A stretch of DNA of 64,000 nucleotides from Anaerolineales bacterium (GTDB lineage: Bacteria > Chloroflexota > Anaerolineae > Anaerolineales > Villigracilaceae), in NCBI GenBank assembly GCA_024710905.1, contig JANJTV010000120.1, positions 1 through 64,000 on the forward strand, written 5' to 3'. A program made the position numbers and the translations under genes. Under the pieces are notes generated by a model, which had not been told where the DNA came from, did no database searches, and worked only from the letters and a program-made list of their open reading frames with translations. Position 1 is the first letter of the stretch, and the number at the start of each line of letters is the position of its first letter. Shown here piece after piece: positions 9,169-54,172 of this stretch.

Positions 9169-9183
9169 GGTTTTTCCAGTGTC

Positions 9184-31987: not shown

Positions 31988-32478
31988 TTGTAGCCGCCTT
32001 TCTGGTTCAGGAAATCCACCAGCCCCCCGGCGTTGAGAATCTCCAGCATGACATCCGGCATTTTGGTGGCCTGCCAGATCTGGCGGTTGCTGGAAACCGC
32101 GCCATTGAGGATATCCACTGTAACCTGCGCGCCGGGTTGGATGTCGTGCTGCGGGGCTTCAACCAAGAGCAGGCCAATGTTAATGGCATTGCGGAAGAAA
32201 ATGCGGGCAAACGAACGCGCCACCACCGCCGAAACCCCCGCCGCCTTGAGGGCAATCGGCGCCTGCTCACGGCTGGATCCACAGCCAAAGTTACTGCCTA
32301 CTACCAGCACATCCCCGGTGCGGACGGCGCTGGCAAAGGCTGGGTCGAGGTCTTCAAGTACGTGTGCGGCCAGGTCAGTTGTATCGAGTGTTTTGGTGTA
32401 TTTGCCGGGGATGATGCGGTCCGTATCAATGTTATCCACATTATAGACGTGGGCCTTGCCGGTGATGATGGTGGTCAT
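31984..32478 (-). CDS. Aconitase-family dehydratase, small subunit (LeuD/DmdB-like)
   Basis: The protein has 164 aa, the swivelling small subunit of a two-part hydro-lyase. Signature residues are D-T-D-R-I-I-P-G-K-Y (18-27) and G-S-N-F-G-C-G-S-S-R (61-70). The short length and the D-T-D-R-I-I form match the homoaconitase, citraconate and dimethylmaleate hydratase branch, which also contains isopropylmalate isomerase of archaea and Chloroflexota. It overlaps the large subunit by 4 nt. No other leucine genes (leuA, leuB) are near, so a catabolic hydratase is favoured, but a leucine role cannot be excluded. Confidence 0.85.
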   Translation of the reverse strand: MTTIITGKAHVYNVDNIDTDRIIPGKYTKTLDTTDLAAHVLEDLDPAFASAVRTGDVLVVGSNFGCGSSREQAPIALKAAGVSAVVARSFARIFFRNAINIGLLLVEAPQHDIQPGAQVTVDILNGAVSSNRQIWQATKMPDVMLEILNAGGLVDFLNQKGGYK

Positions 32479-33695
32479 AGGGCCTCCGGGTCGACGATTT
32501 CACCCGCCACAGCCGCGGCGGCCACCACGGCCGGGGAAGCAAGGAAAATACTGGCACGCGGGTTGCCCATGCGCCCCTGGAAGTTGCGGTTGGTGGAGGA
32601 AATGGTCACTTCGCCGTCGCCGGGCACGCCCAGGTGGGTGCCCACGCAAGGCCCACAGCCGGAGGTGATGAACACTGCCCCGGCCTCTGTCAGCGTCTGG
32701 ATGGTTCCATCGGCTAGGGCAGCCTCGAATACCGCTTTGGAAGCCGGGGCAATGATCAGGCGTACGGCCAGTTTACGGCCACGCAATACTTCGGCGACGG
32801 CCTGCAAGTCCTCGAGGCGGCTGTTGGTGCACGAGCCAATGAAGGCAGCATCCACTTTTTGGCCAAGTACTTCATCAATCGGGATGACATTATCCGGCGA
32901 GTGGGGAACGGCCACCTGCGGGCGCAGGGAGGAGACATCCACTTCGTAGCGAGCGCGGAAGTCGGCGCTTTCATCCACCAGCTGGTGCTCAAACGGTTCG
33001 TCCAGGCGCAGGCCGGTGGTGTCCACCAGCCCGGCTTTGGCGCCCATCTCGGCCACCATATTGGCCAGCACCATGCGGCTGGCAAGGGTCATTTGCTCCA
33101 CAACCGGGCCATTGAATTCAATGGATTCATAAACAGCGCCTTCCACTCCCATTCGCTGTACCAGATGCAGGATGATGTCTTTGGCGGTAATGCCTTTTGG
33201 CAGACGGCCGGTAAGCGTGAACAATACGGTCTGGGGAACTTTGAGCCAGGTTTGGCCAGTACGCAGCACCCCGGCCAGGTCCGTGGAACCAACGCCAACG
33301 GCAAATGCGCCCAGCGCGCCATAGGTTGGCGTGTGCGAATCCGCGCCGAGGAACAGGTCGCCGGGGCGGACGTGTCCGTTTTCCACCATCAACTGGTGGC
33401 AGATGCCCGCGCCCACGTCGTAGAGTTTGAGTCCCTGCTGACGGGCAAAATCGCGCATCATTTTATGCAAGTTGGCCACGCGCTCGTTCGGCGCCGGGGA
33501 GGCGTGGTCAATGACCAGAAAGGCTTTTTCGCGGTTCCAGACCGTTTTGCCGCCCATTTGTTCAAAGGCTTTAATCGCGAACGGCGCTGTGGCGTCGGTA
33601 GCCATCACGCCGTCCACATCCACAATGGCGATTTCACCAGCGCGGACGGGCTTCCTGGCGTGTTTGGAGATAATGCGTTCAGAAAGGGTTGCCAT
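32475..33695 (-). CDS. Aconitase-family dehydratase, large subunit (LeuC/DmdA-like)
   Basis: The protein has 406 aa. The 4Fe-4S ligands C289 (I-G-S-C-T-N-S-R), C347 and C350 (S-G-C-G-P-C) are all present, with G-A-D-S-H-T-P-T-Y-G (117-126). The compact length is that of the homoaconitase/dimethylmaleate hydratase branch rather than the longer LeuC of leucine operons. Likely chemistry is reversible hydration of a maleate- or citraconate-type acid. An ATG at 33707 would add four residues; the ATG at 33695 fits the family start M-A-T-L-S-E-R-I. It lies between the HMGL fusion gene and the small subunit in one operon. Confidence 0.85.
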   Translation of the reverse strand: MATLSERIISKHARKPVRAGEIAIVDVDGVMATDATAPFAIKAFEQMGGKTVWNREKAFLVIDHASPAPNERVANLHKMMRDFARQQGLKLYDVGAGICHQLMVENGHVRPGDLFLGADSHTPTYGALGAFAVGVGSTDLAGVLRTGQTWLKVPQTVLFTLTGRLPKGITAKDIILHLVQRMGVEGAVYESIEFNGPVVEQMTLASRMVLANMVAEMGAKAGLVDTTGLRLDEPFEHQLVDESADFRARYEVDVSSLRPQVAVPHSPDNVIPIDEVLGQKVDAAFIGSCTNSRLEDLQAVAEVLRGRKLAVRLIIAPASKAVFEAALADGTIQTLTEAGAVFITSGCGPCVGTHLGVPGDGEVTISSTNRNFQGRMGNPRASIFLASPAVVAAAAVAGEIVDPEAL

Positions 33696-33711
33696 GGGAT
33701 GAAACATAAAA

Positions 33712-35100
33712 TTAGTCTGTAACCAGTTTGTGCATTTTGGCGGGCAATTCCTTACCGAGCAAGGCCTCCATGCGCCGCGAGAGCGCCGCCACTTTGGGGA
33801 TGTCCACCCCGGTCTGGATGCTCATTTCGTGCAGCATGTAGGCCGTGTCCTCCGTGGCAACATTGCCTTTAGCGGTCTGGATGAACGGGCAACCGCCCAG
33901 CCCGCCAAAGGATGTGTCAAACGCAGTAACTCCGGATTTGAGTGCCGAGAGCAGGTTGGCCAGGCCCTGCCCGCGTGTGTCGTGCAGGTGCAGCACCACC
34001 GGCACACTGCCCGCCATCGGCAGGATCTCCTGTACGGTCTTGCGAATCAATTGCGGGTTGCCCAGCCCGGCCGAATCGGCCAGCGAGAGTTCATCAATGC
34101 CCATGGCGAGGAAACGACGGGACAGAGAAACCACTTTGGCGGTCTCAATGCGGCCCTCAAAGGCGCAGCCGAAGGCCACCTGCACCCCGGCGCGTACCTG
34201 CATACCGTATTCGCGGGCTTTTTGTACCATGGCGGACATTTCCTGCATGCCTTCCTCGATGCTGGTATTGGCGTTCTTCAGGGCCAGCGTTTCGGAGGCC
34301 GGTACACCCATATCCACCTTGCGGATGCCCGCTGCAGCGGCCCGTTCGAGGCCTTTCATGTTCAGCACCAGCGCGGAATAAGTCACGTCATCAAACTTCG
34401 GCAGGGAGGCACACAGCGCGTCAGCATCGGCCAGTTGCGGCACAATCCTCGGGTTGACAAACGAAGTAACTTGAATCTCTTTCAGACCTGCTTCAACCAG
34501 CCCGTGCACAAACTCAAGTTTGGTTTCGGTCGGGATGAATTTCTCCTCGCGCTGGATGCCGTCGCGCAGTCCAACTTCCACCAGCGAGACTTCTATCGGT
34601 ACGGTCGGAACTTCAAGGGCTTCGCTGCGCCGCCACAGGCGGTTGTGATACAGCAATGGGATGTCGAAATCAGAAACCGCCAGGTCTTTCACTTCACCAA
34701 CAAAAATCGTGTGATCGCCGCCGTCGTACATGGCCCAGACCGTACAATCCACCCAGGCCAGGCTGTCGGGCAGCAATGGCGCACCCGTGGCAGCAGTGGT
34801 GACATTCAGCCCGTCAAACCGGTCTTTAATTTCAGGTTTCATCCCGGCGAACCGCATGCCCAGGTCGAGTTGGCGAGCGCTGAGAACGTTCACGGCAAAA
34901 TAGCCGCTTTCGGCAATAACATTGTGGGTGAATAGGCGTTTATTTAGCGAGACCAGCACCAGCGGCGGCTCGAGGCTCAGGCTGGTAAACGAACTGGCTG
35001 TAATACCAATCGGCGTCTCACCATGCCGGGTGGTAACGACCGTTACCCCGGAAGCAAACTGGGACATGGCACGCTTGAAGTTATCGGGGGAATAGGCCAT
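33712..35100 (-). CDS. Fusion: flavin reductase domain plus HMG-CoA-lyase-type DRE-TIM lyase
   Basis: The protein has 462 aa in one uninterrupted frame. Residues 1-160 are a flavin reductase-like FMN domain (F-A-S-G-V-T-V-V-T-T, G-I-T-A-S-S-F-T-S-L-S-L-E-P-P, ending L-L-Y-H-N-R-L-W-R-R). Residues 168-462 are an HMG-CoA-lyase-type barrel with R179/D180 in V-G-L-R-D-G-I-Q, metal ligands H371 and H373 in H-L-H-D-T, catalytic C404 in G-L-G-G-C-P and N413 in K-G-N-V-A-T-E-D. The lyase half therefore looks active, splitting a 3-hydroxyacyl-CoA such as a citramalyl- or HMG-type thioester. The fusion is unusual; the reductase could feed FMNH2 to an oxygenase of this locus (inference). Confidence 0.88.
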   Translation of the reverse strand: MAYSPDNFKRAMSQFASGVTVVTTRHGETPIGITASSFTSLSLEPPLVLVSLNKRLFTHNVIAESGYFAVNVLSARQLDLGMRFAGMKPEIKDRFDGLNVTTAATGAPLLPDSLAWVDCTVWAMYDGGDHTIFVGEVKDLAVSDFDIPLLYHNRLWRRSEALEVPTVPIEVSLVEVGLRDGIQREEKFIPTETKLEFVHGLVEAGLKEIQVTSFVNPRIVPQLADADALCASLPKFDDVTYSALVLNMKGLERAAAAGIRKVDMGVPASETLALKNANTSIEEGMQEMSAMVQKAREYGMQVRAGVQVAFGCAFEGRIETAKVVSLSRRFLAMGIDELSLADSAGLGNPQLIRKTVQEILPMAGSVPVVLHLHDTRGQGLANLLSALKSGVTAFDTSFGGLGGCPFIQTAKGNVATEDTAYMLHEMSIQTGVDIPKVAALSRRMEALLGKELPAKMHKLVTD

Positions 35101-35106
35101 ACTGGG

Positions 35107-35904
35107 TTAATCTTCTTTGAACAGATCGCGCTTGATAAACGGGGCGGTCAGGAAACGCAGCATCAACCCGAAGCGCGAGAGATATTCAATATGTGCGCCA
35201 TTCTTCGGCCTGGAGAGCATTTGCTTCACAAGGAAAGGCACAACGTCCTCCACCCGGCTGGCGATGATATTAAAAATCGGTTTGAACCGCGCCCACTCGT
35301 CAGAATGCGGGTCAAATTGCCCCAGCACCATGTCCGTCTTGACCATGCCTGGCTGCAGGCTGCTAACCCGCACCTGCGTGCCCTCCAACTCGGCGGCCAG
35401 GGTCTTATTAATGAACGATACCGCCGCTTTCGACGAGCCATAAATGCCAATGCCGGGGCGCACACGGCCATTGGAGCCAAATCCTTCAAAATTAAAAATA
35501 TGCCCGAAGCCCTGCGCCAACATGCCCTTCACAGCCACACGCACGCCGTTCAGCAGGCCAAAGACATTTGCGCCAAAAATATTGTTGATGGTGGCCTGGT
35601 CCACTTCCCAGAGTTTAATTTGTGGATGCGCCAGCCCGGCGTTATTAATCCAGATGTCCACCCGTCCGAATTTGGCTACAGCGGAATCCCAGAGTTTTTG
35701 TACATCTTCCGGGCGGGTGACGTCGCAGGCGCACGAGGCGAGGCGTTCCGTACCGAAACGGGATTCCAGCTGACGGGCGGCCTGCTCCAGCGCCGCAGGG
35801 TTGCGCCCGCTGATGACGACGGAACACCCCTCGGCCAGGAATCCCCCGGCCAGACCCAATCCGATTCCCCTGGTAGAACCGGTAATGACAATCACCTTGC
35901 TCAT
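35107..35904 (-). CDS. Short-chain dehydrogenase resembling chlorophyll b reductase (NOL/NYC1)
   Basis: The protein has 265 aa. Standard SDR motifs are T-G-S-T-R-G-I-G (8-15), N-N-A-G (87-90), S144, Y155 and K159. Beyond these, three stretches recall plant NOL/NYC1 as I remember those sequences: V-D-I-W-I-N-N-A-G, H-I-F-N-x-x-G-x-G-S-x-G with Y-G-S-S-K, and P-G-M-V-x-T-x-x-x-L-G followed by F-N-I-I. NOL/NYC1 reduce the 7-formyl group of chlorophyll b. The gene overlaps the upstream barrel-protein gene by 4 nt and lies three genes from a Rieske oxygenase. A generic ketoreductase is the alternative. Confidence 0.8.
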   Translation of the reverse strand: MSKVIVITGSTRGIGLGLAGGFLAEGCSVVISGRNPAALEQAARQLESRFGTERLASCACDVTRPEDVQKLWDSAVAKFGRVDIWINNAGLAHPQIKLWEVDQATINNIFGANVFGLLNGVRVAVKGMLAQGFGHIFNFEGFGSNGRVRPGIGIYGSSKAAVSFINKTLAAELEGTQVRVSSLQPGMVKTDMVLGQFDPHSDEWARFKPIFNIIASRVEDVVPFLVKQMLSRPKNGAHIEYLSRFGLMLRFLTAPFIKRDLFKED

Positions 35905-36848
35905 GCCGCCACCCAGTTGAGCACGCCAAAGCTGGTGTATAGCATTTTGTCTGATTTGTAGAATTGCCAGACCACGCTCATGTTGAAGTTGTCGTCGATG
36001 ATGAATTCGCGGCCTTTGATTTTGAGCGACTCGCCGTAGAAGTGCTGGCTGGTGTAGAGCGCGCGGCCATAGCCAAAGGAATTGCCGAACAGGTCTGGCC
36101 CTTCAAAGAAATGGCGGTTGTTGTTGCGATAGCGATTGAACTTGTAGTTTTTGCTGAATACGCCGCTGATGGAAATGTTCATCTCGGCGTGCAGCAGGTC
36201 GAGCGGTTTGTAGTCCATGCGCACTTGGTTGGTGCCCAGTTTTCGCTGGTCTGCACCATACACCAGCATTTCACCCTGCCAGTGCCCGGATTTCTTGGAC
36301 GGCAGGATGTGTGGGTTGCGGCCATTGGTTTTTTCGGTTTCGCAGAAGGCGTCGATGCGGGTTTTGGTTTCAGCATTGGTGTGATAGTCAAACGCCACTT
36401 TGTAAATGCCGTTGAATACGGTGCAGATCTTTGGCCCGTCGTAAATGAGCGAAGAATAGACCTGGGTCTGGCCGTCGGGCAGGATGTGCACCATGGTGCG
36501 CAAGTCCCCCGTCCAGCCGGGGGAATAATAGTGCGCGTCTACTAGGCTGCCATAAGGATGTCCCGCGCCAATAAAATCCGGCCCGAGGTAAATGCGGTCC
36601 TGGTCGCTATCGATGACGCCAAATGAGAAGATATCCGAGACTTCAAAACGTGCCACCAACGGCCCGGCAGAATCCTGCAGGTGGGTGTTCATCGTATATG
36701 TGGTCGAGCCTTTTGCCTGGTCAAAGACAGACGAACGGTAGACCTTGTTGTAGCCGATGTGGTTGCCTTCGGTGTCGAAAATGGAAGGCAGGCCGTGCCA
36801 CTCGCCTTCAATGGATTTTTGCCAGTTGGAAGGTTGCGGGTTGCTCAT
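35901..36848 (-). CDS. Two-domain calycin-like (lipocalin/DUF3598-type) protein
   Basis: The protein has 315 aa with no signal peptide. Two copies of a barrel-start motif are seen: G-E-W-H-G near residue 15 and G-H-W-Q-G near 190. Each is followed by a Gly-rich turn and repeated beta strands, so two eight-stranded barrels in tandem are likely. The same motif occurs in three other proteins of this operon. Barrels of this type include bilin lyases (CpcS) and other tetrapyrrole carriers, which would fit the neighbours. Function is not proven. The ATG at 36848 has AGGAG upstream; the codon at 36851 is TTG. Confidence 0.65.
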   Translation of the reverse strand: MSNPQPSNWQKSIEGEWHGLPSIFDTEGNHIGYNKVYRSSVFDQAKGSTTYTMNTHLQDSAGPLVARFEVSDIFSFGVIDSDQDRIYLGPDFIGAGHPYGSLVDAHYYSPGWTGDLRTMVHILPDGQTQVYSSLIYDGPKICTVFNGIYKVAFDYHTNAETKTRIDAFCETEKTNGRNPHILPSKKSGHWQGEMLVYGADQRKLGTNQVRMDYKPLDLLHAEMNISISGVFSKNYKFNRYRNNNRHFFEGPDLFGNSFGYGRALYTSQHFYGESLKIKGREFIIDDNFNMSVVWQFYKSDKMLYTSFGVLNWVAA

Positions 36849-36865
36849 CAAATCTCCTTACAAGA

Positions 36866-37588
36866 CTATTTTTCAACCGATTGATTAATCAGGACGTGAC
36901 GCATTTTTTCGCTGGTTTCCGCGCCAACCAATCGCTCCACCTGCGCCCAGACCTTGTCCACGTTCGGGTCAAAAATGGCGGCGCGATTCAGTTGGTCGCG
37001 CCCGGCAAAGTCGGCGGCAGGCACCGCCCCGGTGGGAATGCCATTTTCGACCAGGTTAAACCAGTGTTCGAGATAGCCATTCACCGGGGCCTGGATCTGC
37101 CCAAACGCCGATTCGTTTGCGCGGTAAGCCAGCATCCACGGCGACATGAGCGCGTATTGCTTCGGCCCAAGCTGGGCGGGAGTCAGGCCTTCAATTTTCT
37201 TGGCTTCTTCAAAAATAGGCGTCAGGTCGTCAAAGATGGCGTTCAGGTAAGCCAGGTTGGCGCCCAGGTCGGCGCGCGGAATCAGGTCCAGGTGGAAGGC
37301 AAAGTACGGCCCGGCCAGCACCGAATCGAGGGTGAAATGCGGGATGTAGCTGCCCGGCGCAGTGAAGGCAAAGATCATGTGCGAATCCAGGCCGATCGGC
37401 GGGACGGCCAGGCCAATGTAAACCATCTTGTGAACCTTATCACCGCTAAACAGGCGCAGGCTGCCCACCGGGGCCGGGGACATCGGGCTGGTGAGGGTCA
37501 TGTACGGCGCGCCGATTTCGGTCAGGCCAAAGCGTTTCTGGATTTTTTCAAGCGTTCCAAGCGAAAGCTGGGCAGGCAGGGAGGACAT
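36866..37588 (-). CDS. Red chlorophyll catabolite reductase (RCCR) homolog A
   Basis: The protein has 240 aa. The core matches plant RCCR (Pfam RCC_reductase, related to ferredoxin-dependent bilin reductases): Y-I-P-H-F-T-L-D (81-88), then H-L-D-L-I-P-R-A-D-L (99-108) and the C-terminal R-D-Q-L-N-R-A-A-I-F-D-P-N-V-D (197-211). D88 aligns with Glu154 of Arabidopsis RCCR, and an Asp in 207-211 with Asp291, both reported active-site residues. RCCR reduces the C20/C1 double bond of the open tetrapyrrole with ferredoxin electrons. The gene lies 28 nt downstream of the Rieske oxygenase in the same operon. The substrate may differ from the plant one. Confidence 0.75.
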   Translation of the reverse strand: MSSLPAQLSLGTLEKIQKRFGLTEIGAPYMTLTSPMSPAPVGSLRLFSGDKVHKMVYIGLAVPPIGLDSHMIFAFTAPGSYIPHFTLDSVLAGPYFAFHLDLIPRADLGANLAYLNAIFDDLTPIFEEAKKIEGLTPAQLGPKQYALMSPWMLAYRANESAFGQIQAPVNGYLEHWFNLVENGIPTGAVPAADFAGRDQLNRAAIFDPNVDKVWAQVERLVGAETSEKMRHVLINQSVEK

Positions 37589-37616
37589 GGTGTACTTCTC
37601 CGTGATGGGAATAAAT

Positions 37617-38741
37617 CTAGTCGCCGGATTCCGGCTTGACAGTCGGCACTTCTTTCAACACCCAGGCCTTGGCCAGGTCGGGGTTGTCCTTGCGGGCCGG
37701 GGAGGGAATCACCACAGCATGCTGGCGGCCGTATTCCTGTTTGATGCGGTGAATATCAATCTGCCAACCCTTATCAATATATTTCTGGCGCATGCGGCGG
37801 TAAGCAATCTGGATGCCGTCTGATTTGACCGACAATTCCGCGCCAATGTCGTAGGGCAGCAGTTCCGGGCGCTGGGAGAGCACAATCGGGTAATCCTGAT
37901 TGAATATTTTCAGCACACGCTTGAGGGCGTCACCATCTGCCCAACTACCTTTGAAAAAGGTGCGCAGTTGCGTCCATTTTGTGATGGTTTTGTATTCATC
38001 CACCGGCAGGTGGAAGTTGAACAGAATCATCAGGCCCATCGGCAGGGTGACTTCCAGCAGGGTCATGCAGGGCATCCAGAAGGCGGCGCGGGTCTTTACA
38101 CCGGGACGATCTTCTTTATAAAGACTGCTCCACAGGCCCTTGATATTCTTCCTCGGCGGTTTGAGCGTCACCGTCATGCTGCCGCCGTAGGGATAATCCT
38201 CCACTTCGTAATCGGGGATGTCCGGCTCTTCGCGGTTGCCGAACGCGCCGCCATGCACAAACGGGGCGTGGGCGGCATCCAGGCTGTTTTCAAGGGCGCG
38301 CTCGTAGTACACATCCCACTCGAATGTGCCGCGCACCACCCGGAATTGCGGGTCGTCAAAGTAAGGCAATTCGGGCAGGGGCGGGCGTTCCGCTTCGGGC
38401 AGGTCACCCAGGAAGGCCCAGATATAGCCATATTTTTCGACCGTCGGGTACGAATCCACACGCGCCTTCTTGGGTGGGACAAGATCGGGGTGGGCAGGGA
38501 TTTTGACGCACGAACCATCAGCCTTGTATTCCCAGCCGTGGTACGGGCAGACAATACAGTCGCCGTTCATCCAGCCGTCTGAAAGTGCCCCGCCGCGATG
38601 CACGCACAGGTCACTCAGCACATGCGCCACACCGTCCGGCGTACGGTAGATGACGAATTCCTGTTCGAGAGCCGTCACCCGCAAGGGTTTGTCTTTGATG
38701 AGATGAGCAAATTCGAGCGGCCACCAAAAGTTCTTTAACAT
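37617..38741 (-). CDS. Rieske [2Fe-2S] oxygenase, pheophorbide a oxygenase/VanA-like
   Basis: The protein has 374 aa. The Rieske cluster ligands are C46-V-H48 and C65-P-Y-H68. The mononuclear iron site is N152-x2-D155-x2-H158-x4-H163 in E-N-S-L-D-A-A-H-A-P-F-V-H, the order found in pheophorbide a oxygenase (PaO), chlorophyll a oxygenase, TIC55 and vanillate demethylase. No membrane helices or C-terminal CxxC are obvious, unlike plant PaO. PaO opens the chlorin ring and gives the RCCR substrate; here the gene is flanked by two RCCR homologs (one directly, one across the hydrolase). The ATG at 38741 has AGGAG 8 nt upstream. Electron donors are not encoded here, apart from the flavin reductase fusion. 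Confidence 0.85.
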   Translation of the reverse strand: MLKNFWWPLEFAHLIKDKPLRVTALEQEFVIYRTPDGVAHVLSDLCVHRGGALSDGWMNGDCIVCPYHGWEYKADGSCVKIPAHPDLVPPKKARVDSYPTVEKYGYIWAFLGDLPEAERPPLPELPYFDDPQFRVVRGTFEWDVYYERALENSLDAAHAPFVHGGAFGNREEPDIPDYEVEDYPYGGSMTVTLKPPRKNIKGLWSSLYKEDRPGVKTRAAFWMPCMTLLEVTLPMGLMILFNFHLPVDEYKTITKWTQLRTFFKGSWADGDALKRVLKIFNQDYPIVLSQRPELLPYDIGAELSVKSDGIQIAYRRMRQKYIDKGWQIDIHRIKQEYGRQHAVVIPSPARKDNPDLAKAWVLKEVPTVKPESGD

Positions 38742-38757
38742 CTTCTTTTCTCCTTGT

Positions 38758-39723
38758 TTACCTGGTTTCAAACCGAGTAATGAACGGATTCTCCCTTGCG
38801 ATTTGGGCTAACGATTCAAAACTTTGCCTGCCAACTGCCGCCCGGATGAAAGCATCCACCAGTTCGACGAACACCTGCCGCAGGGCGGCCTGGTCGCCGC
38901 TTGCGGGCTGTTCCAGGAATCCGCGCCCGGTGGTGTCATCGTGTGGATGACAGGCCAGGAAGTGGTTGGCGCCCTCGAGGATGGCCAGCGCCGCCGGGTT
39001 TTTGGCCGCTTCGGCAAAAGTACGTTCCAGGAGCAGGGTGGGCGTTCCCTGCCCGTCGAGGGCATAACGATGGCTGGAGGCTTCCACCACCCCATCCTGC
39101 GCCCCACCTACAATCAGGAGCGGGTTTTCGGGCAGGGATAAAACCGTGCCAGCCGCATAGCCAAGCATGGTGCTGGCCCCGCTGTGTGCGCCGTAGGCGA
39201 ACGAACCCACCACCTGCGGGAACCATTCGCGGTTGGCGTTCAGCAGCGCGATGGTGCCACCCGCCGAATGACCACCGAGAATCACTTTGTTCACATCCAG
39301 CAGGCCTGCCAGCACGGAGCTTTCGTTCAGGCGGCTGAGTTCTTCCAGCATGGCGGGCAGGGCCGAGGCAGAGGGGCCGGAGCCGTAGGCATCCGCTTTA
39401 AGGGCGGCCAGATCCATGCCGGGGGTTAACGCCACCGAGCCGGGCAGGTCTTCCGCAATCCAACTCATCAGCATTGTCACCACACCGCGCCGGGCCAATT
39501 CCACGGCCAGCCAGGCATAAGATTCCATGCCGACGTTCACACCGGGCAGGAAGATCACCACCGGGTAGGGCGCGCGGTTGGTATCCGCCGGAATGACACC
39601 GGTGTTGCGTTCGTTGGGTGTATCGCCAAACACAGCCGGGTAGTACACCTTGAGCGTGATGGTGTCATACGGGGCTGTGGCGTTGGCCACCTTTGCAGCA
39701 CGGAAAAAAGCCCGAACCATCAT
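38758..39723 (-). CDS. Alpha/beta hydrolase, chlorophyllase-like esterase
   Basis: The protein has 321 aa. It has Y-P-V-V-I-F-L-P-G (53-61), the nucleophile elbow G-G-H-S-A-G-G with S153, acid D210 in G-G-A-Q-D and base H254 in G-A-N-H-F. The order and the elbow recall plant chlorophyllase (G-H-S-R-G-G), which removes phytol from chlorophyll, but PET-hydrolase and dienelactone-hydrolase-like esterases share these features. No signal peptide is clear. The ATG at 39723 overlaps the RCCR-B stop by 4 nt. The chlorophyllase assignment rests largely on context. Confidence 0.72.
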   Translation of the reverse strand: MMVRAFFRAAKVANATAPYDTITLKVYYPAVFGDTPNERNTGVIPADTNRAPYPVVIFLPGVNVGMESYAWLAVELARRGVVTMLMSWIAEDLPGSVALTPGMDLAALKADAYGSGPSASALPAMLEELSRLNESSVLAGLLDVNKVILGGHSAGGTIALLNANREWFPQVVGSFAYGAHSGASTMLGYAAGTVLSLPENPLLIVGGAQDGVVEASSHRYALDGQGTPTLLLERTFAEAAKNPAALAILEGANHFLACHPHDDTTGRGFLEQPASGDQAALRQVFVELVDAFIRAAVGRQSFESLAQIARENPFITRFETR

Positions 39724-40520
39724 TCTGGCCGCGGGTTTACCCGGTCGCCGCCCCACAGGCCGCGCACCAGTTTGTCGGCCATGTCCTTGCCAAAAAGTTG
39801 TTCGCCAACCACATTGGCCGGGTCGCGGTCTGCAATTGCGCGCCGGACAGCCAGGTCGCGGGCTGCCAGCGCGGGCCGTTCGCTGGCAGGGGTGGGCTCA
39901 GCTTCGTTGACGTTCTTCAGCCAGCCATCGAACATCCAGTGCGCCAGGTCGCGGATTTCGCTGACTGCCTTGTCCGTCGGCTGCACCAGGTAAACAAAAC
40001 CAGTCTGCGAGACAGACGTGCGCATGTACACATCGCGGCTGATGAACGGGCGGTAGTCCGGGTTGTCCTGGAATTCGCGCCACTTGTTGTTTACCGGCAG
40101 GTAATATTTATCCAGGTAATCCAGGTCCACCATTAAATCGACACGCGGGATGTAATCAAAATAGAAGAAAATATCGGGCATTGTGCCCATGGCCATGCCA
40201 AAATGCGGCGCCTTGACTTGCGGCCCGAGCCAGACGGTGAAATGCATGTTGGTAAAGCTGTGCTTCGGGTTGCCAATGTGGCTGTGCACCAGCCAGTCGA
40301 TCTCCGGCCCGGTGAACGTGTTCAGCGAGCCTTTGGCGTTGCCATCCAGCGAGGTGTAGCTGGCAAACGGCGCGGTGGAGGCGTCTGGTGTCAGCTCAAA
40401 GCGGGCGGCCAGTTTTTCGCTCAGTTCGCGGGTAATTTCCCACAGCTTGCCAAACCAGCCAGAGGTATCCACATTGGGCTGGGCGGCCAATAATTCCATC
40501 AGCGATTGCGTTGTAGCCAT
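39720..40520 (-). CDS. Red chlorophyll catabolite reductase (RCCR) homolog B
   Basis: The protein has 266 aa. It is the closer of the two to plant RCCR: K-A-P-H-F (103-107), F-D-Y-I-P-R-V-D-L (121-129), D-Y-L-D-K-Y-Y (134-140), S-R-D-V-Y-M-R-T (161-168) and R-D-L-A-V-R-R-A-I-A-D-R-D (221-233). D233 fits the place of Asp291, but the residue aligned with Glu154 is A110, whereas homolog A has Asp there. The two paralogs may therefore differ in stereochemistry or substrate, or act as a heteromer. The gene overlaps the hydrolase gene and follows a barrel-protein gene by 13 nt. Confidence 0.82.
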   Translation of the reverse strand: MATTQSLMELLAAQPNVDTSGWFGKLWEITRELSEKLAARFELTPDASTAPFASYTSLDGNAKGSLNTFTGPEIDWLVHSHIGNPKHSFTNMHFTVWLGPQVKAPHFGMAMGTMPDIFFYFDYIPRVDLMVDLDYLDKYYLPVNNKWREFQDNPDYRPFISRDVYMRTSVSQTGFVYLVQPTDKAVSEIRDLAHWMFDGWLKNVNEAEPTPASERPALAARDLAVRRAIADRDPANVVGEQLFGKDMADKLVRGLWGGDRVNPRPE

Positions 40521-40533
40521 ACAGTTCTCTCTC

Positions 40534-41373
40534 CTATTCAGGTGTCAGGTGGTAAAACTCAACGTGCGTCACGGCATGATCGGTGAACCACTTGCGCAGG
40601 CCGAGCAGGTGCCTGCCTGCCGGGTCCAGGACTTCCATGATTTCCAAAATCGTGTCGCCGCCTGCGGCCAGTTCGGCTTCAAACAGGTGGCCGGTTTGTT
40701 TGGATAAGCCGGTTAAATGGTCGCTGGTAATACGCCGGATTCCGTCCTGGGGAGCGGGTTCCAGCAGCCAGGACTGCTCCCCGCCGGAATCTGACCACCC
40801 GGAGGCGTGATACTGTCTCGATAAGGTGTTTTCCAATTCCACAATGCCCGCCGCGCTCACCCGTCGCAGGCTGCCAGACCAATTGGGTGCAACCTGCTCC
40901 GGCCGGGTCTGTGCGCCAAAGGTCGGGTAGTCCATGCCAGTGGTTTCCTCTAAAACAGCAATCCCGACAATATTGGCCCGAACCTCGCCCGCCGTGTGGA
41001 ATTTACCGCCGGTTAATTGCAGGTTGGGCCCGGCCAGCAGGCCAAAGGATGTGAAGTTGAAACCCAGGCGCGTCCAGAAACCACGCCCGGTGATGACTCC
41101 CTCGCCCCAGGCCAGGCCTGTGCCAATCACATCCGGGCCGTGGTAGCGGCGGGCGCGCCCATTCACCGAAAGGTCAAAGACCCACTCGCCCGCAAAACGA
41201 CCGAGCGCATGAGACTTCAATTGTTCATCCGGCAGGCAGACCTGCGTTACACGGATGCGGCCATCTTCCAGGCGGTGCAGACTGCGCCGCTGGCGATTAA
41301 TGCCTGCAAATGAGCCATCTGCGTTGTAAACGTACTCGCTAACCAGCCAAGAACCTAGAAAAGAAACAGACAT
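40534..41373 (-). CDS. Calycin-like protein, paralog 2
   Basis: The protein has 279 aa, beta-rich, with no signal peptide. It starts with L-G-S-W-L-V-S-E-Y, a variant of the G-x-W barrel motif, and has a second motif N-W-S-G-S-L near 170. The mid region G-L-L-A-G-P-N-L-Q-L-T-G-G is typical strand-turn sequence. It is a weak paralog of the products at 35901 and 41378. The ATG at 41373 lies 4 nt after the upstream stop; the frame extends to a TTG at 41391. A carrier or chaperone for a hydrophobic pigment is suggested by the operon only. Confidence 0.58.
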   Translation of the reverse strand: MSVSFLGSWLVSEYVYNADGSFAGINRQRRSLHRLEDGRIRVTQVCLPDEQLKSHALGRFAGEWVFDLSVNGRARRYHGPDVIGTGLAWGEGVITGRGFWTRLGFNFTSFGLLAGPNLQLTGGKFHTAGEVRANIVGIAVLEETTGMDYPTFGAQTRPEQVAPNWSGSLRRVSAAGIVELENTLSRQYHASGWSDSGGEQSWLLEPAPQDGIRRITSDHLTGLSKQTGHLFEAELAAGGDTILEIMEVLDPAGRHLLGLRKWFTDHAVTHVEFYHLTPE

Positions 41374-41377
41374 GGCA

Positions 41378-42280
41378 TCAGCGCGATTCAAACGTCAGGA
41401 TGCCGACCTGCGCGCCAATGCGCTGGCCGCCGCGATACCATAAATGCACAACGGCTTTCACGTCACCGGTGTGGGTGACCACCTCCCGCCGCCAGACTCG
41501 CAGGCTGGGCCGCAGGTGTTGGATGTGCCCACTGGAAGCCCGCCCGCCGCACAGGTTGTACGAACCGGCCAGATCGCCGGGGCCGGACCAAGCCTGGAAG
41601 CCGTTGGTTTTCCATTTAACGGTGGTAGGCTGCGGATCGTACGCCATCCCGGAATAACTGATTTCAACCTGGTTCCCGTTCGTTTCAACGGTCTCCACAT
41701 ATTCGTTGGCGGAAATCTCGTTCAATTTTTCATCCAGCACGGCCAGCCTGCCGCGCCACACGCCTTTGCGGTGTAATAGGATTTCGCCGCGCCCGGCGGC
41801 CGGGTCATTTTTTAGGTCGTGTTCGCTGCCATCCACCAGGCCGGGGATACCTTCGAAGGCATCCTCCACACGCTGGTTTTCGCCAACCACACTGTAGATT
41901 AACTGGTCGCCGCGCGAAAGTTGGGCCAGGCTGAGCTGGGTTTTCCCGTCTGGCAGCACCATCAGGAAAAAACGCTGGCTCATGCCAATCGCCGCCCAGT
42001 AGGAGTTTGAATCGACCAGGGTTTCAGTGAGCGGTTCGGCGTAGCCGACATTCACCGGGCCCTGGTACAAGCGCTCAGTCTTGCGGTCTTCAATGAAATA
42101 ATGACCCGAAAACTTGAACGGGCCGAGGAAAGAAAGGTCGATGCGAATGCGGTTTTCGGCCACCTGCTGCACATTGCGGCGGTCGGTGCCATTGCCCAAA
42201 AAGCAGCCTTCGCCGGAGTACACCTCGGCGCACCCGGCCCATTTGCCGGCCGCTTTGCTGAAACCTTCGCTGCGCGACAT
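41378..42280 (-). CDS. Calycin-like protein, paralog 3 (two domains)
   Basis: The protein has 300 aa. Two barrel motifs are seen: G-K-W-A-G-C-A-E-V-Y (12-21) and G-V-W-R-G-R-L-A-V-L (about 175-184). Strand patterns match the protein at 35901, including the bridging D-S-N-S-Y-W and L-P-D-G-K-T-Q segments, where the paralog has D-A-H-Y-Y-S and L-P-D-G-Q-T-Q. There is no signal peptide or membrane segment. It is separated from the DUF3891 gene by 2 nt. A tetrapyrrole-binding role is inferred. Confidence 0.62.
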   Translation of the reverse strand: MSRSEGFSKAAGKWAGCAEVYSGEGCFLGNGTDRRNVQQVAENRIRIDLSFLGPFKFSGHYFIEDRKTERLYQGPVNVGYAEPLTETLVDSNSYWAAIGMSQRFFLMVLPDGKTQLSLAQLSRGDQLIYSVVGENQRVEDAFEGIPGLVDGSEHDLKNDPAAGRGEILLHRKGVWRGRLAVLDEKLNEISANEYVETVETNGNQVEISYSGMAYDPQPTTVKWKTNGFQAWSGPGDLAGSYNLCGGRASSGHIQHLRPSLRVWRREVVTHTGDVKAVVHLWYRGGQRIGAQVGILTFESR

Positions 42281-42282
42281 GC

Positions 42283-43098
42283 CTAACCTGCCACCAACCG
42301 GTAAGACTGCACCTGCCGGGGCGTGGTCTGGAAAATGTGGGCAAAATCCGCGCCCTGCGGCTGGGGGGTGATGAAACGGCCTTCAACGCGGACTTCAATC
42401 GATTCGTCTTCAAAGGGGAAGGGGCTGAGCGCATAGCTGCCATCGCCGCGCGGGGCAATTTGCAGCATCAGGTTGTTGCCCTGGCCATCCGGCACATTGA
42501 GGAAGGAAGCTTCCTTGCGGGCTTCGGCATGAGTCATGTGGAAGTACAGCGAAAGGGTGTCGAAGAATTGCAATAACTTGTAATTATTGAACAGGGCGGT
42601 TTGCTCGACCCAGGCGGCGGTCTCCGGGTCAGCGGCCAGGGCAGCCTTGAGCCGTTCCTGGCGGGCCAGTTCGTCGGCCAGCATTTGCTGCGCGGCAGCC
42701 TTGTGCTCCTCGGCAATTTTGTCAATAAAAATGAAATCAGACATGCCATAGCGGCCATTAAACAGTCCGTAGGTATGCATGGAGGAAAGTAGGCCACAGT
42801 AGGCATGGTGTTTCTCATTAAAATCCGGCGATCCCTTAGAGGTGCGAATCAGGTACGGCAGGGGCGTCTGGGTCAGGTGGTGTGGCAGGCCGGTGGCCGG
42901 GGATTGTTCACGCAGGCCATCCACAGGCTGCCAGCCTTCATCATGATGCGACACAATATAAACCATCAGGTCATGCGGAACGGGTTTTGCAAATTGCCGG
43001 TTGCCAAACTGGCTGGCAAACTGCCCGCTCATGCGAGCGTGGTCGGCCTGTTCTATCGCAAAATGGGGCTGGCCCTCGGCGGCGGTCTGGATGATCAT
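42283..43098 (-). CDS. DUF3891-family protein
   Basis: The protein has 271 aa. It begins with Q-A-D-H-A-R-M-S-G-Q-F-A and has conserved His/Asp clusters S-H-H-D-E-G-W (50-56), S-S-M-H-T-Y-G-L (about 104-111) and F-N-N-Y-K-L-L-Q-F-F-D-T-L-S-L. These fit DUF3891, an uncharacterised helical family whose His/Asp pattern recalls HD-type metal enzymes. A metal-dependent hydrolase or a dechelatase-like role is conceivable in this operon, but there is no direct evidence. It lies 11 nt after the small barrel gene and 2 nt before the next. Confidence 0.75.
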   Translation of the reverse strand: MIIQTAAEGQPHFAIEQADHARMSGQFASQFGNRQFAKPVPHDLMVYIVSHHDEGWQPVDGLREQSPATGLPHHLTQTPLPYLIRTSKGSPDFNEKHHAYCGLLSSMHTYGLFNGRYGMSDFIFIDKIAEEHKAAAQQMLADELARQERLKAALAADPETAAWVEQTALFNNYKLLQFFDTLSLYFHMTHAEARKEASFLNVPDGQGNNLMLQIAPRGDGSYALSPFPFEDESIEVRVEGRFITPQPQGADFAHIFQTTPRQVQSYRLVAG

Positions 43099-43109: not shown

Positions 43110-43565
43110 TTAGGGCTGCTGCACGCGCACAAAGTCTTGAATCTGGAATATTAACGTCTTGCCATCGCGCACCTTGTGGGTGATGATGCGGCGGTTATTC
43201 GGGTCAATGAAATAATGGTTGTTATAGACCGTGGACTGCGAGACGTTGCTCTCAATAGTAAAGACATAATTGTAGGGGGTCAGTTCCGTTCCGTGCAGCT
43301 GGACCATCTCATTGCCGCCTGAGCAATACTTGCCATCCACTTTGACGTCTGTGTGATAGACCGCCGGGCCATAGCCGTACAGCTTCTCAAAATCCTCGTG
43401 CAGGTGCCAAGTGTTCTCGTCAATCCAGTACACATCCATGTGCACCGCGCTGGCCTCCAGGAAATTCCCCTGACCATCAAAGGTTTTGCACAACCCTTCC
43501 CAGCGCCCCATAAAGCACTGGTACGAACGGGTGGATTTCGGATCACCGTAATTTTTCTCGCTCAT
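43110..43565 (-). CDS. Small single-domain calycin-like protein, paralog 4
   Basis: The protein has 151 aa, the length of one barrel. G-R-W-E-G-L-C-K-T-F-D-G-Q-G (20-33) matches the DUF3598/CpcS-like barrel start and the motif repeated in three larger proteins of this operon. It is the first structural gene after gntR (11 nt apart). Candidate roles are binding or delivery of a tetrapyrrole or its breakdown products. There is no catalytic signature. Confidence 0.65.
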   Translation of the reverse strand: MSEKNYGDPKSTRSYQCFMGRWEGLCKTFDGQGNFLEASAVHMDVYWIDENTWHLHEDFEKLYGYGPAVYHTDVKVDGKYCSGGNEMVQLHGTELTPYNYVFTIESNVSQSTVYNNHYFIDPNNRRIITHKVRDGKTLIFQIQDFVRVQQP

Positions 43566-43576
43566 TGAAAAGACTC

Positions 43577-44296
43577 CTAAATATTGAGTTGGAACTTGAA
43601 GCGATCGCCCCGGTAGTTGGCCCGCAGGAACTCAAGCGGTTTGCCCGCTGAATCCGAATACACCACCTGGATGGACAGCACCGGTTCACCCGGCTTGATT
43701 TTCAACAGACCGGCTTCGGTCGTCCCGGCAGGCACGGCCTGCACCGTGCGGCGGATGCGGATGCCGTCCCGGTCGGGCAGTTCACGCATGTAGTCGCGCA
43801 GGGCTTCGTCGCTGGCATTTTCAGGGTCAAATTTGCCATGGCGGGTAAGGGCCACAAAGTGCCGCCCAATCGGTTCGCCATTGGCGCGCAGCAACAACTC
43901 CACCAGATAGACCTTTTCATCTTCCGGGATGCCCAGCGCCTCCTGCACCTGCTGGAAGGGCACGCCATTGCCACGGCTGAGGAATTGCCATTCCGGCTCA
44001 ATGCCCTGCTGGCGCATCAAGGCAGTGATGCTGATGCGCTCCATCGGGTCGTGTACGATCTCACGTGCGGCCACAAACGTACCCTGCCCGCGATGGCGGG
44101 TGAAACGGCCTTCAAAGGTCAGTTCGGCCAGGGCCTGGCGCACGGTGGTCCGGCTGAGTCCGTAGGTTTCCTGCAATTCCTGTTCGCTGGGCACCAGGTC
44201 GCCGGGCTTCCATTCGCCGGAGTCAAGCTTGTCAACAATCAATTGTTTGAGCTGGTAATACAGGGGGAGGGGGGATTCGCGGTCAATTGTGATCAT
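43577..44296 (-). CDS. GntR/HutC-family transcriptional regulator with UTRA domain
   Basis: The protein has 239 aa. The N-terminal winged helix (residues 5-75) carries P-S-E-Q-E-L and the recognition helix L-S-R-T-T-V-R-Q-A-L. Residues 90-237 form the UTRA ligand-binding domain (R-x-x-x-G-x-P with L-V-E-L-L-L-R-A-N-G-E-P-I). Such regulators release DNA when a pathway metabolite binds. The ATG at 44296 is used; the frame extends to a TTG at 44320. It heads the 15-gene minus-strand operon and is divergent from the amidohydrolase operon. The perfect palindrome at 44332-44349 overlaps both promoters and is the expected operator. Confidence 0.92.
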   Translation of the reverse strand: MITIDRESPLPLYYQLKQLIVDKLDSGEWKPGDLVPSEQELQETYGLSRTTVRQALAELTFEGRFTRHRGQGTFVAAREIVHDPMERISITALMRQQGIEPEWQFLSRGNGVPFQQVQEALGIPEDEKVYLVELLLRANGEPIGRHFVALTRHGKFDPENASDEALRDYMRELPDRDGIRIRRTVQAVPAGTTEAGLLKIKPGEPVLSIQVVYSDSAGKPLEFLRANYRGDRFKFQLNI

Positions 44297-44312
44297 GGTT
44301 TTCACCAAAGTA

Positions 44313-44340
44313 TTGTACAAAGAAAAAGAAATGTTATAAT
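44313..44340 (+). promoter_or_regulatory. Promoter of the amidohydrolase operon
   Basis: TTGTAC (44313-44318) and a perfect TATAAT (44335-44340) are 16 nt apart. The -10 box lies inside the GntR palindrome. Confidence 0.6.
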
Positions 44341-44349
44341 GTTATAACA
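44332..44349. promoter_or_regulatory. GntR operator palindrome
   Basis: TGTTATAATGTTATAACA is a perfect inverted repeat with 8-bp arms and a 2-bp centre. It covers the plus-strand -10 box and the expected minus-strand start point, so binding would shut both operons. Confidence 0.75.
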
Positions 44350-44397: not shown

Positions 44398-45858
44398 ATG
44401 CTCGACCTGCTGATCAAAAACGTCCGGCTCGTCCGCCCCAACCAGGCGGATGTCCCCACAGTTGATATTGGCATCCGCGACGGCAAATTTGCCCGCATTG
44501 CCCCGTCCATTGAGTCCAGCGAAGCAAAAGAAGTACACGACGGCCAGGGCCGGCTGGCCTTCCCAGGCTTGGTGGATGCCCACATGCACGTAGGTATTTA
44601 CCAGCCGCTGGCACAGGATGCCGTCACCGAGAGCAAAGCTGCCGCCATGGGCGGCGTGACCAGCGCCATTACTTACTTCCGTACCGGCGAGTATTACCTG
44701 AACAAAGGCGGCGCATACAAGGATTTCTACCCCGAAGTATTGGATATTTCCTCTGGCCGCTACTGGGTGGATTATGCCTACCATCTCGCGCCAATCAACA
44801 AAAGCCATATCGATGAAATGCCCGCCCTGCTCAGTCAACACGGCGTTTCTTCTTTTAAAATCTTCATGTTCTACGGCGGGCACGGCCTGCATGGCAAGTC
44901 TGACCAGCAGCACAACTTCCTGAAACTGGCCGAAGATGAAAAATACGACTTTGCCCATTTTGAATTCATCATGCGCCAGCTCAGCGCGATGCTAAAAGCC
45001 AACCCGCAGCAGGCGCCCTACATCAGCCTGAGCCTGCACTGCGAGGTGGCAGATATTCTTAACGCCTACACCACCATCGTGCAGAAGGAAGGCAAACTCA
45101 AGGGCCTGCACGCCTACAGCGCCGCCCGACCGCCGCACAGCGAGGGGCTGGCCGTTTTTATTGCCTCCTACCTGGCGCATGAGACCAACTGCGCCAACAT
45201 CAATCTGTTGCATCTCACTTCGCGCAAGGCGCTTGAAGCCGCCCTGATGATGCGTGACCTGTTCCCGCACATCAACTTCCGCCGCGAGGTGACCATCGGC
45301 CACCTGCTGCTGGATACCGACGAGCCCAACGGCGTGCTGGCCAAGGTCAACCCGCCCATCCGACCGCGCGCCGATGTGGAATTCCTGTGGGAGAAAGTGC
45401 TCTCCGGCGATGTGGACTGGGTGGTCAGCGACCACGCCTGCTGCTCCAGCGAGCAAAAATACAACGCCGCCCACCCGGACGACATCTGGATGGCCAAAAG
45501 CGGCTTCGGCGGCACGGAGTACATGCTCTCCGGCCTGCACAGCGAAGGCCGCAAACGCGGACTGTCGCTTAACCGTATGGCCGAGCTGGTGAGCTGGAAC
45601 CCCGCCCAGCGCTACGGCCTGCTCGCCAAAGGCGATGTCACCGAAGGGTACGACGCCGACCTGGTGCTCTTTGACCCGAATGAGACCTTCATCGTGCGTG
45701 CCACCGAATCGGAATCATTCCAGGGCTATACGCCCTTTGAAGGCCACGAACTGAACGGGCGCGTCAAGATCACCTACCTGCGCGGCCAGAAAATTTACGA
45801 AAACGGCAAGGTGCTCGGCCCGGCCAACGGGCAGTACATCAAACGTCCCGGCGCATGA
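44398..45858 (+). CDS. Hydantoinase/dihydropyrimidinase-type cyclic amidohydrolase
   Basis: The protein has 486 aa. The full binuclear metal site is present: H62 and H64 (D-A-H-M-H), the carboxylated lysine K154 (S-S-F-K-I-F-M-F), H214 (S-L-H-C-E), H272 (L-L-H-L-T-S-R) and D345 (V-S-D-H). Enzymes of this branch open cyclic imides, hydantoins and dihydropyrimidines. Beside tetrapyrrole genes, a maleimide- or lactam-type ring from pyrrole breakdown is an attractive substrate (inference). Pyrimidine catabolism is the alternative, but no other pyrimidine genes are near. AAGGAG lies 9 nt before the ATG, and the stop overlaps the LLM gene. Confidence 0.87.
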   Translation: MLDLLIKNVRLVRPNQADVPTVDIGIRDGKFARIAPSIESSEAKEVHDGQGRLAFPGLVDAHMHVGIYQPLAQDAVTESKAAAMGGVTSAITYFRTGEYYLNKGGAYKDFYPEVLDISSGRYWVDYAYHLAPINKSHIDEMPALLSQHGVSSFKIFMFYGGHGLHGKSDQQHNFLKLAEDEKYDFAHFEFIMRQLSAMLKANPQQAPYISLSLHCEVADILNAYTTIVQKEGKLKGLHAYSAARPPHSEGLAVFIASYLAHETNCANINLLHLTSRKALEAALMMRDLFPHINFRREVTIGHLLLDTDEPNGVLAKVNPPIRPRADVEFLWEKVLSGDVDWVVSDHACCSSEQKYNAAHPDDIWMAKSGFGGTEYMLSGLHSEGRKRGLSLNRMAELVSWNPAQRYGLLAKGDVTEGYDADLVLFDPNETFIVRATESESFQGYTPFEGHELNGRVKITYLRGQKIYENGKVLGPANGQYIKRPGA

Positions 45859-54103: not shown

Positions 54104-54140
54104 TGTTGTATTTCTTCTACCAACATGCTTTAATACAACA
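54104..54140. repeat. Inverted repeat upstream of the acidic FecR lipoprotein gene
   Basis: TGTTGTATT (54104-54112) pairs with AATACAACA (54132-54140) across 19 nt. It lies in the 206-nt gap between coaBC and the lipoprotein and may be an operator. Nothing else recognisable is in this gap. Confidence 0.4.
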
Positions 54141-54172
54141 TGTACTATCCATATACTCTCAATTGGAGGCTT

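Follow-up and report, generated by a model that had tools for sequence, protein, structure and literature searches.

Two divergent RCCR-type proteins in one bacterial operon and a possible route for breakdown of chlorophyll-type tetrapyrroles

Two divergent RCCR homologs in one operon

The window analysed here is a stretch of 64,000 nucleotides from an Anaerolineales bacterium of the phylum Chloroflexota (assembly GCA_024710905.1, contig JANJTV010000120.1, positions 1 to 64,000), and it contains an operon that encodes two homologs of red chlorophyll catabolite reductase (RCCR). Homolog A (240 amino acids) is encoded at 36866..37588 and homolog B (266 amino acids) at 39720..40520. An earlier annotation made from the letters and open reading frames (ORFs) of this DNA (the sequence-only reading) had placed both genes correctly but had not given their strand, which is the minus strand in each case; the plus-strand frame contains two stops opposite B and none opposite A. 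Its description of A and B as divergent paralogs within one operon was borne out. A and B are homologous and share 24% identity (BLASTP, E 1e-12; profile-profile comparison, probability 98.7, E 1.6e-16), and each has the two motifs claimed for it (DLIPRADL and RDQLNRAAIFD in A, DYIPRVDL and RDLAVRRAIAD in B). The two genes lie in a run of 16 genes, the first of which encodes a GntR regulator (44320) and the last a GNAT protein (29604); consecutive genes from the regulator to a CaiB-type CoA-transferase (30815) are separated by gaps of -14 to +28 bases, and the GNAT gene is preceded by an 80-base gap.

B matches the Pfam family RCC_reductase (PF06405) with an E-value of 1.7e-17 and 63.9 bits, above the curated cut-off of 24.9. 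As a single sequence it matches Arabidopsis RCCR in the PDB at E 1.5e-8, and its profile finds plant RCCR (1.8e-21) and bilin reductases (1.1e-7, 7e-5 and up to 0.003). The window's A did not match PF06405 at E<=1 and thus falls short of the curated cut-off, and 23 of 32 A relatives touch that family at E<=1 (best 5.4e-5). The underlying alignment of A comprises the window's A, the A of genome G112 and 30 of 79 readable RCCR_A genes from the scan described below, and that of B combines the B of the window with 28 of 58 others. The single match of the A profile in the PDB, RimM at E 1.3, was taken as chance. Because of its homology to B, the A relatives that touch PF06405, and its predicted fold, we place A as a relative within the superfamily of RCCR and the ferredoxin-dependent bilin reductases (FDBRs), and not as a member of PF06405.

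AlphaFold2 models, built from alignments of relatives, had predicted local distance difference test scores of 96.3 for A and 94.2 for B. When these models were compared with the PDB using Foldseek, the top match was plant RCCR in both cases (2zxk for A, E 3.2e-12, template modelling score 0.76; 3agc for B, E 1.4e-16, score 0.75). For both proteins Arabidopsis RCCR was followed by FDBRs and then, weakly, by coproporphyrinogen oxidase, and all matches at E<=0.001 were RCCRs or bilin reductases except two chains of a Ycf2/Orf2971-FtsHi complex. Structure prediction, which the sequence-only reading had proposed as a check, therefore yielded the alpha-beta-alpha fold of RCCR and the FDBRs for A as well as B, and not an unlike fold.

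Active-site columns, distribution and phylogeny

Glu154 and Asp291 have roles in the active site of plant RCCR. The sequence-only reading had assigned Asp88 in A and Ala110 in B to the position of Arabidopsis Glu154. Both residues do fall in that column when 151 sequences (124 once near duplicates were removed) are aligned together; the plant residue numbers assume that PDB chain and precursor numbering differ by 43, an offset that we inferred. The split is fixed across bacteria. With each aligned sequence labelled A, B or C (a third type, described below) according to its best tblastn query, all 58 A proteins have an acid in this column (57 Asp, 1 Glu), whereas the 49 B proteins have Ala (38) or Val (11) and all 14 C proteins have Ala. 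The corresponding residue is Glu in Arabidopsis RCCR, Asn in tomato HY2 (phytochromobilin synthase) and Asp in Guillardia PebB. Because the peptides of our genome-collection scan contain the Asp, we also checked 25 A proteins found by profile in the draw of Actinomycetes genomes described below, of which 24 have Asp and one has Glu; only 5 of the 25 have a scan peptide, and the other 20 lack both. An Asp near the Asp291 position is kept in both proteins, as had been claimed (Asp211 in A, Asp233 in B), and the Asp290/291 column holds Asp in 53 of 58 A proteins (4 Asn, 1 Thr), 47 of 49 B proteins (2 gaps) and all 14 C proteins. A separate column, Arabidopsis residue 280 in our numbering, holds the Asp of the RD-x3-R motif. 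Judged from the Glu154 and Asp290/291 columns, nearly every A protein has the acid pair found in plant RCCR, and B and C have lost, or never had, the first acid. The contrast between A and B/C offers a natural experiment for how RCCR-type enzymes select the double bond that they reduce.

The genome-collection scan with A yielded 163 loci, the best 80 of which were kept, a sample weighted to Nocardia and Anaerolineae. By phylum labels assigned within this analysis, they comprise 27 loci from Chloroflexota, 46 from Actinomycetota, 5 from Gammaproteobacteria, and one each from Myxococcales and Acidobacteria. Picking ORFs in the high-GC loci recovered RCCR_A in 51 of 80 when done by length (owing to shadow ORFs) and in 56 of 80 when done by codon-position score, and was replaced by tblastn, on which the neighbour-gene counts over the 80 loci rest; several loci end at contig ends, so that counts are lower bounds where a gene appears absent. 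Within reach of A in these best 80 of 163 loci were a Rieske oxygenase (76), a conserved protein that we call lipo4 (75), a serine hydrolase (66), a short-chain dehydrogenase/reductase (SDR; 66) and B (58). B was found near A in 46 of 46 Actinomycetota loci, 10 of 27 Chloroflexota loci, 1 of 5 Gammaproteobacteria loci and the Myxococcales locus, and not in the Acidobacteria locus.

A and B/C also coincide at the level of whole genomes. Among 296 Actinomycetes genomes drawn evenly, 11 have A and the identical 11 have B/C, and neither was found alone. With the centre genome left out, since it had been chosen as an A carrier, the 10 and 10 coincide among 295, for which 1/C(295,10) = 8e-19; this figure ignores relatedness and linkage, and shared ancestry and linkage contribute to the coincidence. 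Among 20 A carriers picked mostly because B had not been seen beside A, 19 have a separate strong B/C gene, and the sole match in the remaining one (G407) is its A gene. In a set of 400 Chloroflexota genomes, PF06405 was detected in 4, 3 of which clearly have A. The A-B/C pair recurs in several unrelated bacterial groups, and the carriers include cultured strains, e.g., of Hamadaea, Catellatospora and Microbulbifer. As a separate observation, certain Actinomycetes-class genomes of only 1.0-1.7 Mb (G423, G451, G469, G486, G502 and G515; e.g., loci L203, L204, L206 and L208) contain 2 to 5 A-type genes together with B/C, and several have Rieske, CN-hydrolase or FAD monooxygenase genes nearby, which is a large investment for small genomes.

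Two genomes (G112 and G325) have no B in the A operon and encode the third RCCR type, C, at a distant site. The C proteins of these genomes are 35 and 37% identical to B, and the neighbours of C include genes for a CN-hydrolase, an FAD monooxygenase, an aldehyde dehydrogenase and an Amdase-type protein, among others. In another genome (G134), C is present and A is absent. One RCCR_C gene (L110, G406:C4:39152-39934) has a single in-frame TAG. The phylogeny with bilin reductases that the sequence-only reading had called for was computed with FastTree (LG+gamma, 258 columns), with one plant sequence and with bilin reductases as the root. It separates A (support 0.918) from B+C (0.933), and its bilin reductase side was covered only in part, by two partial FDBR sequences. 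C groups within B+C at 1.0, and plant RCCR stands beside B+C at 0.903. This placement suggests that plant RCCR branches inside the bacterial family, which, at modest support and by one method, we treat as a lead only.

The sequence-only reading had offered a non-catalytic copy, a copy of altered specificity, or a heterodimer as explanations for the missing acid in B. B and C retain invariant residues of their own across phyla, C often lies at its own locus, and C occurs without A in G134. These results argue against B/C being a dead copy, and altered specificity provides the better fit.

The conserved block and its neighbours

The gene order conserved around A is (B)-hydrolase-Rieske oxygenase-A-lipo4-SDR, and either of two dissimilar gene sets comes next. 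In the window, all genes of this block are on the minus strand. The Rieske non-haem iron oxygenase, which is of the VanA_C type (37617..38771; Rieske 2.6e-21, VanA_C 2.3e-25), has an intact cluster motif (CVHR, CPYH) and an intact iron-site motif (NSLDAAHAPFVH). At two other loci, tandem Rieske proteins (L040:6706-7758 + 8819-9880 and L042:6840-7928 + 8899-10017) have complementary motif losses, such that the first has the iron-site motif without both cluster motifs and the second has the cluster motifs without the iron-site motif; this pattern of motifs suggests a two-subunit oxygenase split by function. The alpha/beta serine hydrolase, a candidate ester hydrolase (38758..39723), contains the sequence GHSAGG and a triad (Ser153, Asp210, His254) that is invariant in 16 aligned members. 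The conserved core protein lipo4 (35901..36851), whose nickname is coined here, had no PDB profile match at E<=10 and no convincing Pfam match, and it may represent a missing enzyme or a pigment carrier of the route proposed below. A by-eye idea that lipo1 to lipo4 are pigment binders of the lipocalin/calycin type was dropped; the profile and Pfam searches with lipo4 gave no support. The SDR (35107..35904) matches adh_short at 2.7e-42.

Beyond the SDR, and on the same strand, is a gene for a fusion of a flavin reductase (HsaB/RutF-like) with an HMG-CoA-lyase-like domain (33712..35100; NF004283, 312 bits with a cut-off of 246; HsaB, 4.2e-40, below cut-off). The two parts of this protein appear separate in some relatives. 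It is followed by the large subunit of an aconitase-superfamily hydratase (32475..33707), which scores above the cut-offs of TIGR01343 and TIGR02086 and below that of LEU2 (TIGR02083), is therefore not a LeuC equivalog, and has four Cys residues conserved in 18 of 18 sequences; by the small subunit, of the LeuD/DmdB family (31984..32478; TIGR02087, 189.2 bits with a cut-off of 108.95); and by a class III (CaiB-type) CoA-transferase (30815..31987), the nearest model for which, succinate-glutarate CoA-transferase, is below cut-off. One downstream set, that of the Chloroflexota, joins this fusion, the hydratase pair and the CaiB gene with the hydantoinase gene described below; the two DmdAB-like genes were found in Chloroflexota loci only (18 and 17 of 27). 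The other downstream set occurs mainly outside the Chloroflexota and consists of a CN-hydrolase (44/80), an Amdase-type protein (52/80) and an FAD monooxygenase (40/80). In the PDB, the Amdase-type protein matches maleate isomerase best (3.3e-8), tied with arylmalonate decarboxylase (4e-8).

On the other side of B, the minus strand encodes lipo3 (40534..41391; 17/80 loci, all Chloroflexota), lipo2 (41378..42280; DUF3598_N only at E 0.071; 17/80), a DUF3891 protein (42283..43098; PF13030, 6.8e-42; 16/80), the small protein lipo1 (43110..43565; 15/80) and the GntR/HutC-type regulator (43577..44320; 17/80, all Chloroflexota). The latter is a probable local regulator, and its true start is probably a few codons inside the ORF. 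The divergent promoter region contains a perfect palindrome, TGTTATAACA (44340..44349), as a candidate operator, and a second transcription unit starts divergently at 44398 on the plus strand. This unit encodes a cyclic amidohydrolase of the hydantoinase/allantoinase superfamily, a candidate imidase in which the metal-ligand motifs are present (44398..45858); an LLM-class F420/flavin oxidoreductase (45855..46772; TIGR03560 above cut-off; 1/80); a flavoenzyme with an acyl-CoA-dehydrogenase fold (46791..48068; 36/80); and an aldehyde dehydrogenase (48091..49566; 55/80). Because the LLM oxidoreductase gene and the GNAT gene at the operon end (0/80) were so rarely seen, we left them out of the conserved core. 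Unrelated to the operon, the ORF at 54140-55171 encodes a long acidic Ser/Asp/Gly repeat at its C-terminus.

A candidate route, its alternatives and known systems

RCCR-type enzymes and bilin reductases act, to our knowledge, on open-chain tetrapyrroles in every characterised case. We propose, with about an even chance of being right, that A and B are two functional reductases of the RCCR/FDBR superfamily each acting at its own step in a single aerobic pathway that breaks down chlorophyll-type tetrapyrroles. The homology, fold, residue split, pairing, operon and conservation are observed; the substrate, reactions, step order and electron donor are what we infer. The serine hydrolase would take off an ester (phytyl or methyl), and the Rieske enzyme would oxygenate and open the macrocycle. 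A, with both active-site carboxylates of the plant enzyme, would reduce the red open-chain product much as plant RCCR does, and B (or C), which is nearer to plant RCCR in sequence and is without the first carboxylate, would reduce a different double bond or an intermediate further along the route. Oxygenases would then cut the chain into 2-methyl-3-alkyl maleimides. In Chloroflexota, these maleimides would pass from the hydantoinase-like imidase (ring opening) to the DmdAB-like hydratase (hydration) and the CaiB transferase (activation), and in the last step the HMG-CoA-lyase-like domain would cleave the product into pyruvate and an acyl-CoA. The corresponding work in Actinomycetota and Gammaproteobacteria would fall to an amidase and a relative of maleate isomerase/arylmalonate decarboxylase.

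The pyrroles of chlorophyll carry a methyl group and an ethyl, vinyl or propionate group, and oxidative cutting gives methyl-alkyl maleimides. Both downstream gene sets would be pathways for substituted maleimides or maleates, the pieces expected from a tetrapyrrole, and our main argument for the pathway is that two unlike gene sets would fit one kind of product. More tentatively, and somewhat short of an even chance, we suggest that diverse non-phototrophs mineralise chlorophyll or its open-chain catabolites by means of one operon for removal of the ester, ring opening by the Rieske enzyme, two successive RCCR-type reductions (A, then B/C), cutting into substituted maleimides and passage into central metabolism through either maleate module, and that plant RCCR came from the B/C side of an older A-B duplication in bacteria. 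The host assembly is 100% complete and 6.84% contaminated, and no reaction-centre gene (Photo_RC) was detected in it, whereas the positive control was found. Reaction-centre genes are present in 6 of 24 carriers (G325, G134, G407, G412, G413 and G414), and turnover of the cell's own pigment (bacteriochlorophyll) is therefore possible in those.

Several results weigh against a chlorophyll route. PDB searches with A alone and with its profile gave no match to an RCCR or a bilin reductase. With VIA-align, Z was alike (~21 to 25) for RCCR, HY2, PebA/PebB and PcyA whether A or B was compared, a tie that means the fold cannot tell the substrate. None of 15 Rieske members matched the C-terminal family of pheophorbide a oxygenase (PAO), which we take to be PF08417, at E<=1, and the protein is instead VanA/KshA-like. 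The hydrolase matches Chlorophyllase (PF07224) at E 0.11 and 11.6 bits, with a cut-off of 26, and 7 of 16 relatives match it at E<=0.01. The Mg-dechelatase Staygreen was found in 0 of 24 carriers, including the host, and in 3 of 400 Chloroflexota as a positive control. The hydantoinase, CaiB and Amdase proteins are below all equivalog cut-offs, the metal-bridging Lys of the hydantoinase is replaced by Glu in 4 of 12, lipo1 to lipo4 lack a family assignment, and the substrate assignments are predictions from sequence. As for the Staygreen genes themselves, the three Chloroflexota that have them (L228, L229 and L230) are not among the RCCR carriers found in that phylum.

The resemblance of the Rieske enzyme to demethylases and KshA, the HsaB-like flavin reductase domain, the weakly HsaA-like acyl-CoA-dehydrogenase-like protein and the many versatile Actinomycetota among the carriers would all fit an operon that breaks down a non-tetrapyrrole compound (e.g., steroid-, terpenoid- or pyrrole-like), with RCCR-fold proteins recruited for another substrate. 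We consider this unlikely, given that, at E<=0.001, all but two of the Foldseek matches to these proteins are RCCRs or bilin reductases and that the B profile finds plant RCCR and bilin reductases at the E-values given above. It is distinctly unlikely that the genes serve to detoxify a phototoxic pigment rather than to feed on it: pigment turnover is plausible in the 6 carriers with reaction-centre genes, but the other 18 of 24 have none, and the operon runs on into CoA-transferase, lyase and dehydrogenase genes, which suggests carbon use.

A route that handles haem-derived bilins (biliverdin, bilirubin) instead of chlorophyll would be consistent with the fold that bilin reductases have in common with A and B and with the presence of PF01126 haem oxygenase in 5 of 24 carriers, including the Actinomycetota G417-G419. 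Its probability is nevertheless small, as PF01126 is absent from 19 of 24 carriers including the host (the control was found in 3 of 14; other haem oxygenase families were not searched) and it is not obvious what the conserved ester hydrolase and Rieske oxygenase would do with haem. We judge it just as improbable that B is a non-catalytic partner forming a heterodimer with A. The strict co-occurrence of A with B/C and the fact that none of 63 B/C proteins has an acid at the Glu154 column are in keeping with such a partner, but C often belongs to a different operon that has an oxygenase and an amidase of its own, G134 has C without A, and the Asp290/291 column is kept in 61 of 63 B/C proteins, the remaining 2 being gaps. 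Moreover, tomato phytochromobilin synthase, with Asn at the Glu154 column, is an active enzyme. Chlorophyll is synthesised and broken down on a vast scale, and if the proposed route through A and B is true, the operon supplies named, testable genes for chlorophyll breakdown in cultured strains.

Our data point to similarities as well as differences between these proteins and known systems. Plant RCCR (Arabidopsis, PDB 2zxk/3aga) has the same fold and has Asp at the 290/291 column, B is above the cut-off of its Pfam family, and a Rieske oxygenase adjoins the genes here, a pairing like that of RCCR and PAO in the plant pathway. Unlike plants, however, the bacteria have at least two copies per genome in a catabolic operon, Asp (A) or Ala/Val (B, C) replaces Glu154, and the sequence of A is distant. 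The bilin reductases HY2, PebA, PebB and PcyA resemble A and B in fold, with Z as high as to RCCR, and HY2 and PebB have Asp at the 290/291 column, but sequence similarity is weak (1.1e-7 to 0.003 with the B profile, none with A). Nicotinate-type maleamate/maleate routes and dimethylmaleate routes use an amidase and a maleate isomerase or an aconitase-type hydratase for maleates; in contrast, the enzymes described here are below equivalog cut-offs and are linked to tetrapyrrole-type reductases.

In the open-access literature searched, we found no description of a bacterial RCCR/Rieske operon or of an A-B pair, and no bacterial gene set taking the chlorophyll ring to central metabolites; one review (PMC4950323), in the portion available, covers plants. 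Heterotrophic bacteria with members of the bilin-reductase superfamily (pre-PcyA), some in gene clusters, were described by Rockwell et al. 2023, with RCCR-like bacterial sequences as the outgroup (PMC10151467). Those clusters contain bilin-binding globins and V4R proteins, and the available portions of that paper mention neither a Rieske/hydrolase operon nor an A-B pair. Thomas et al. 2009 reported RCCR genes in Nostoc and Anabaena, including two adjacent RCCR-like genes in Nostoc punctiforme (PMC2716323). According to the available portions of that paper, the N. punctiforme genes are highly similar, a possible duplication in a phototroph, whereas A and B are only 24% identical.

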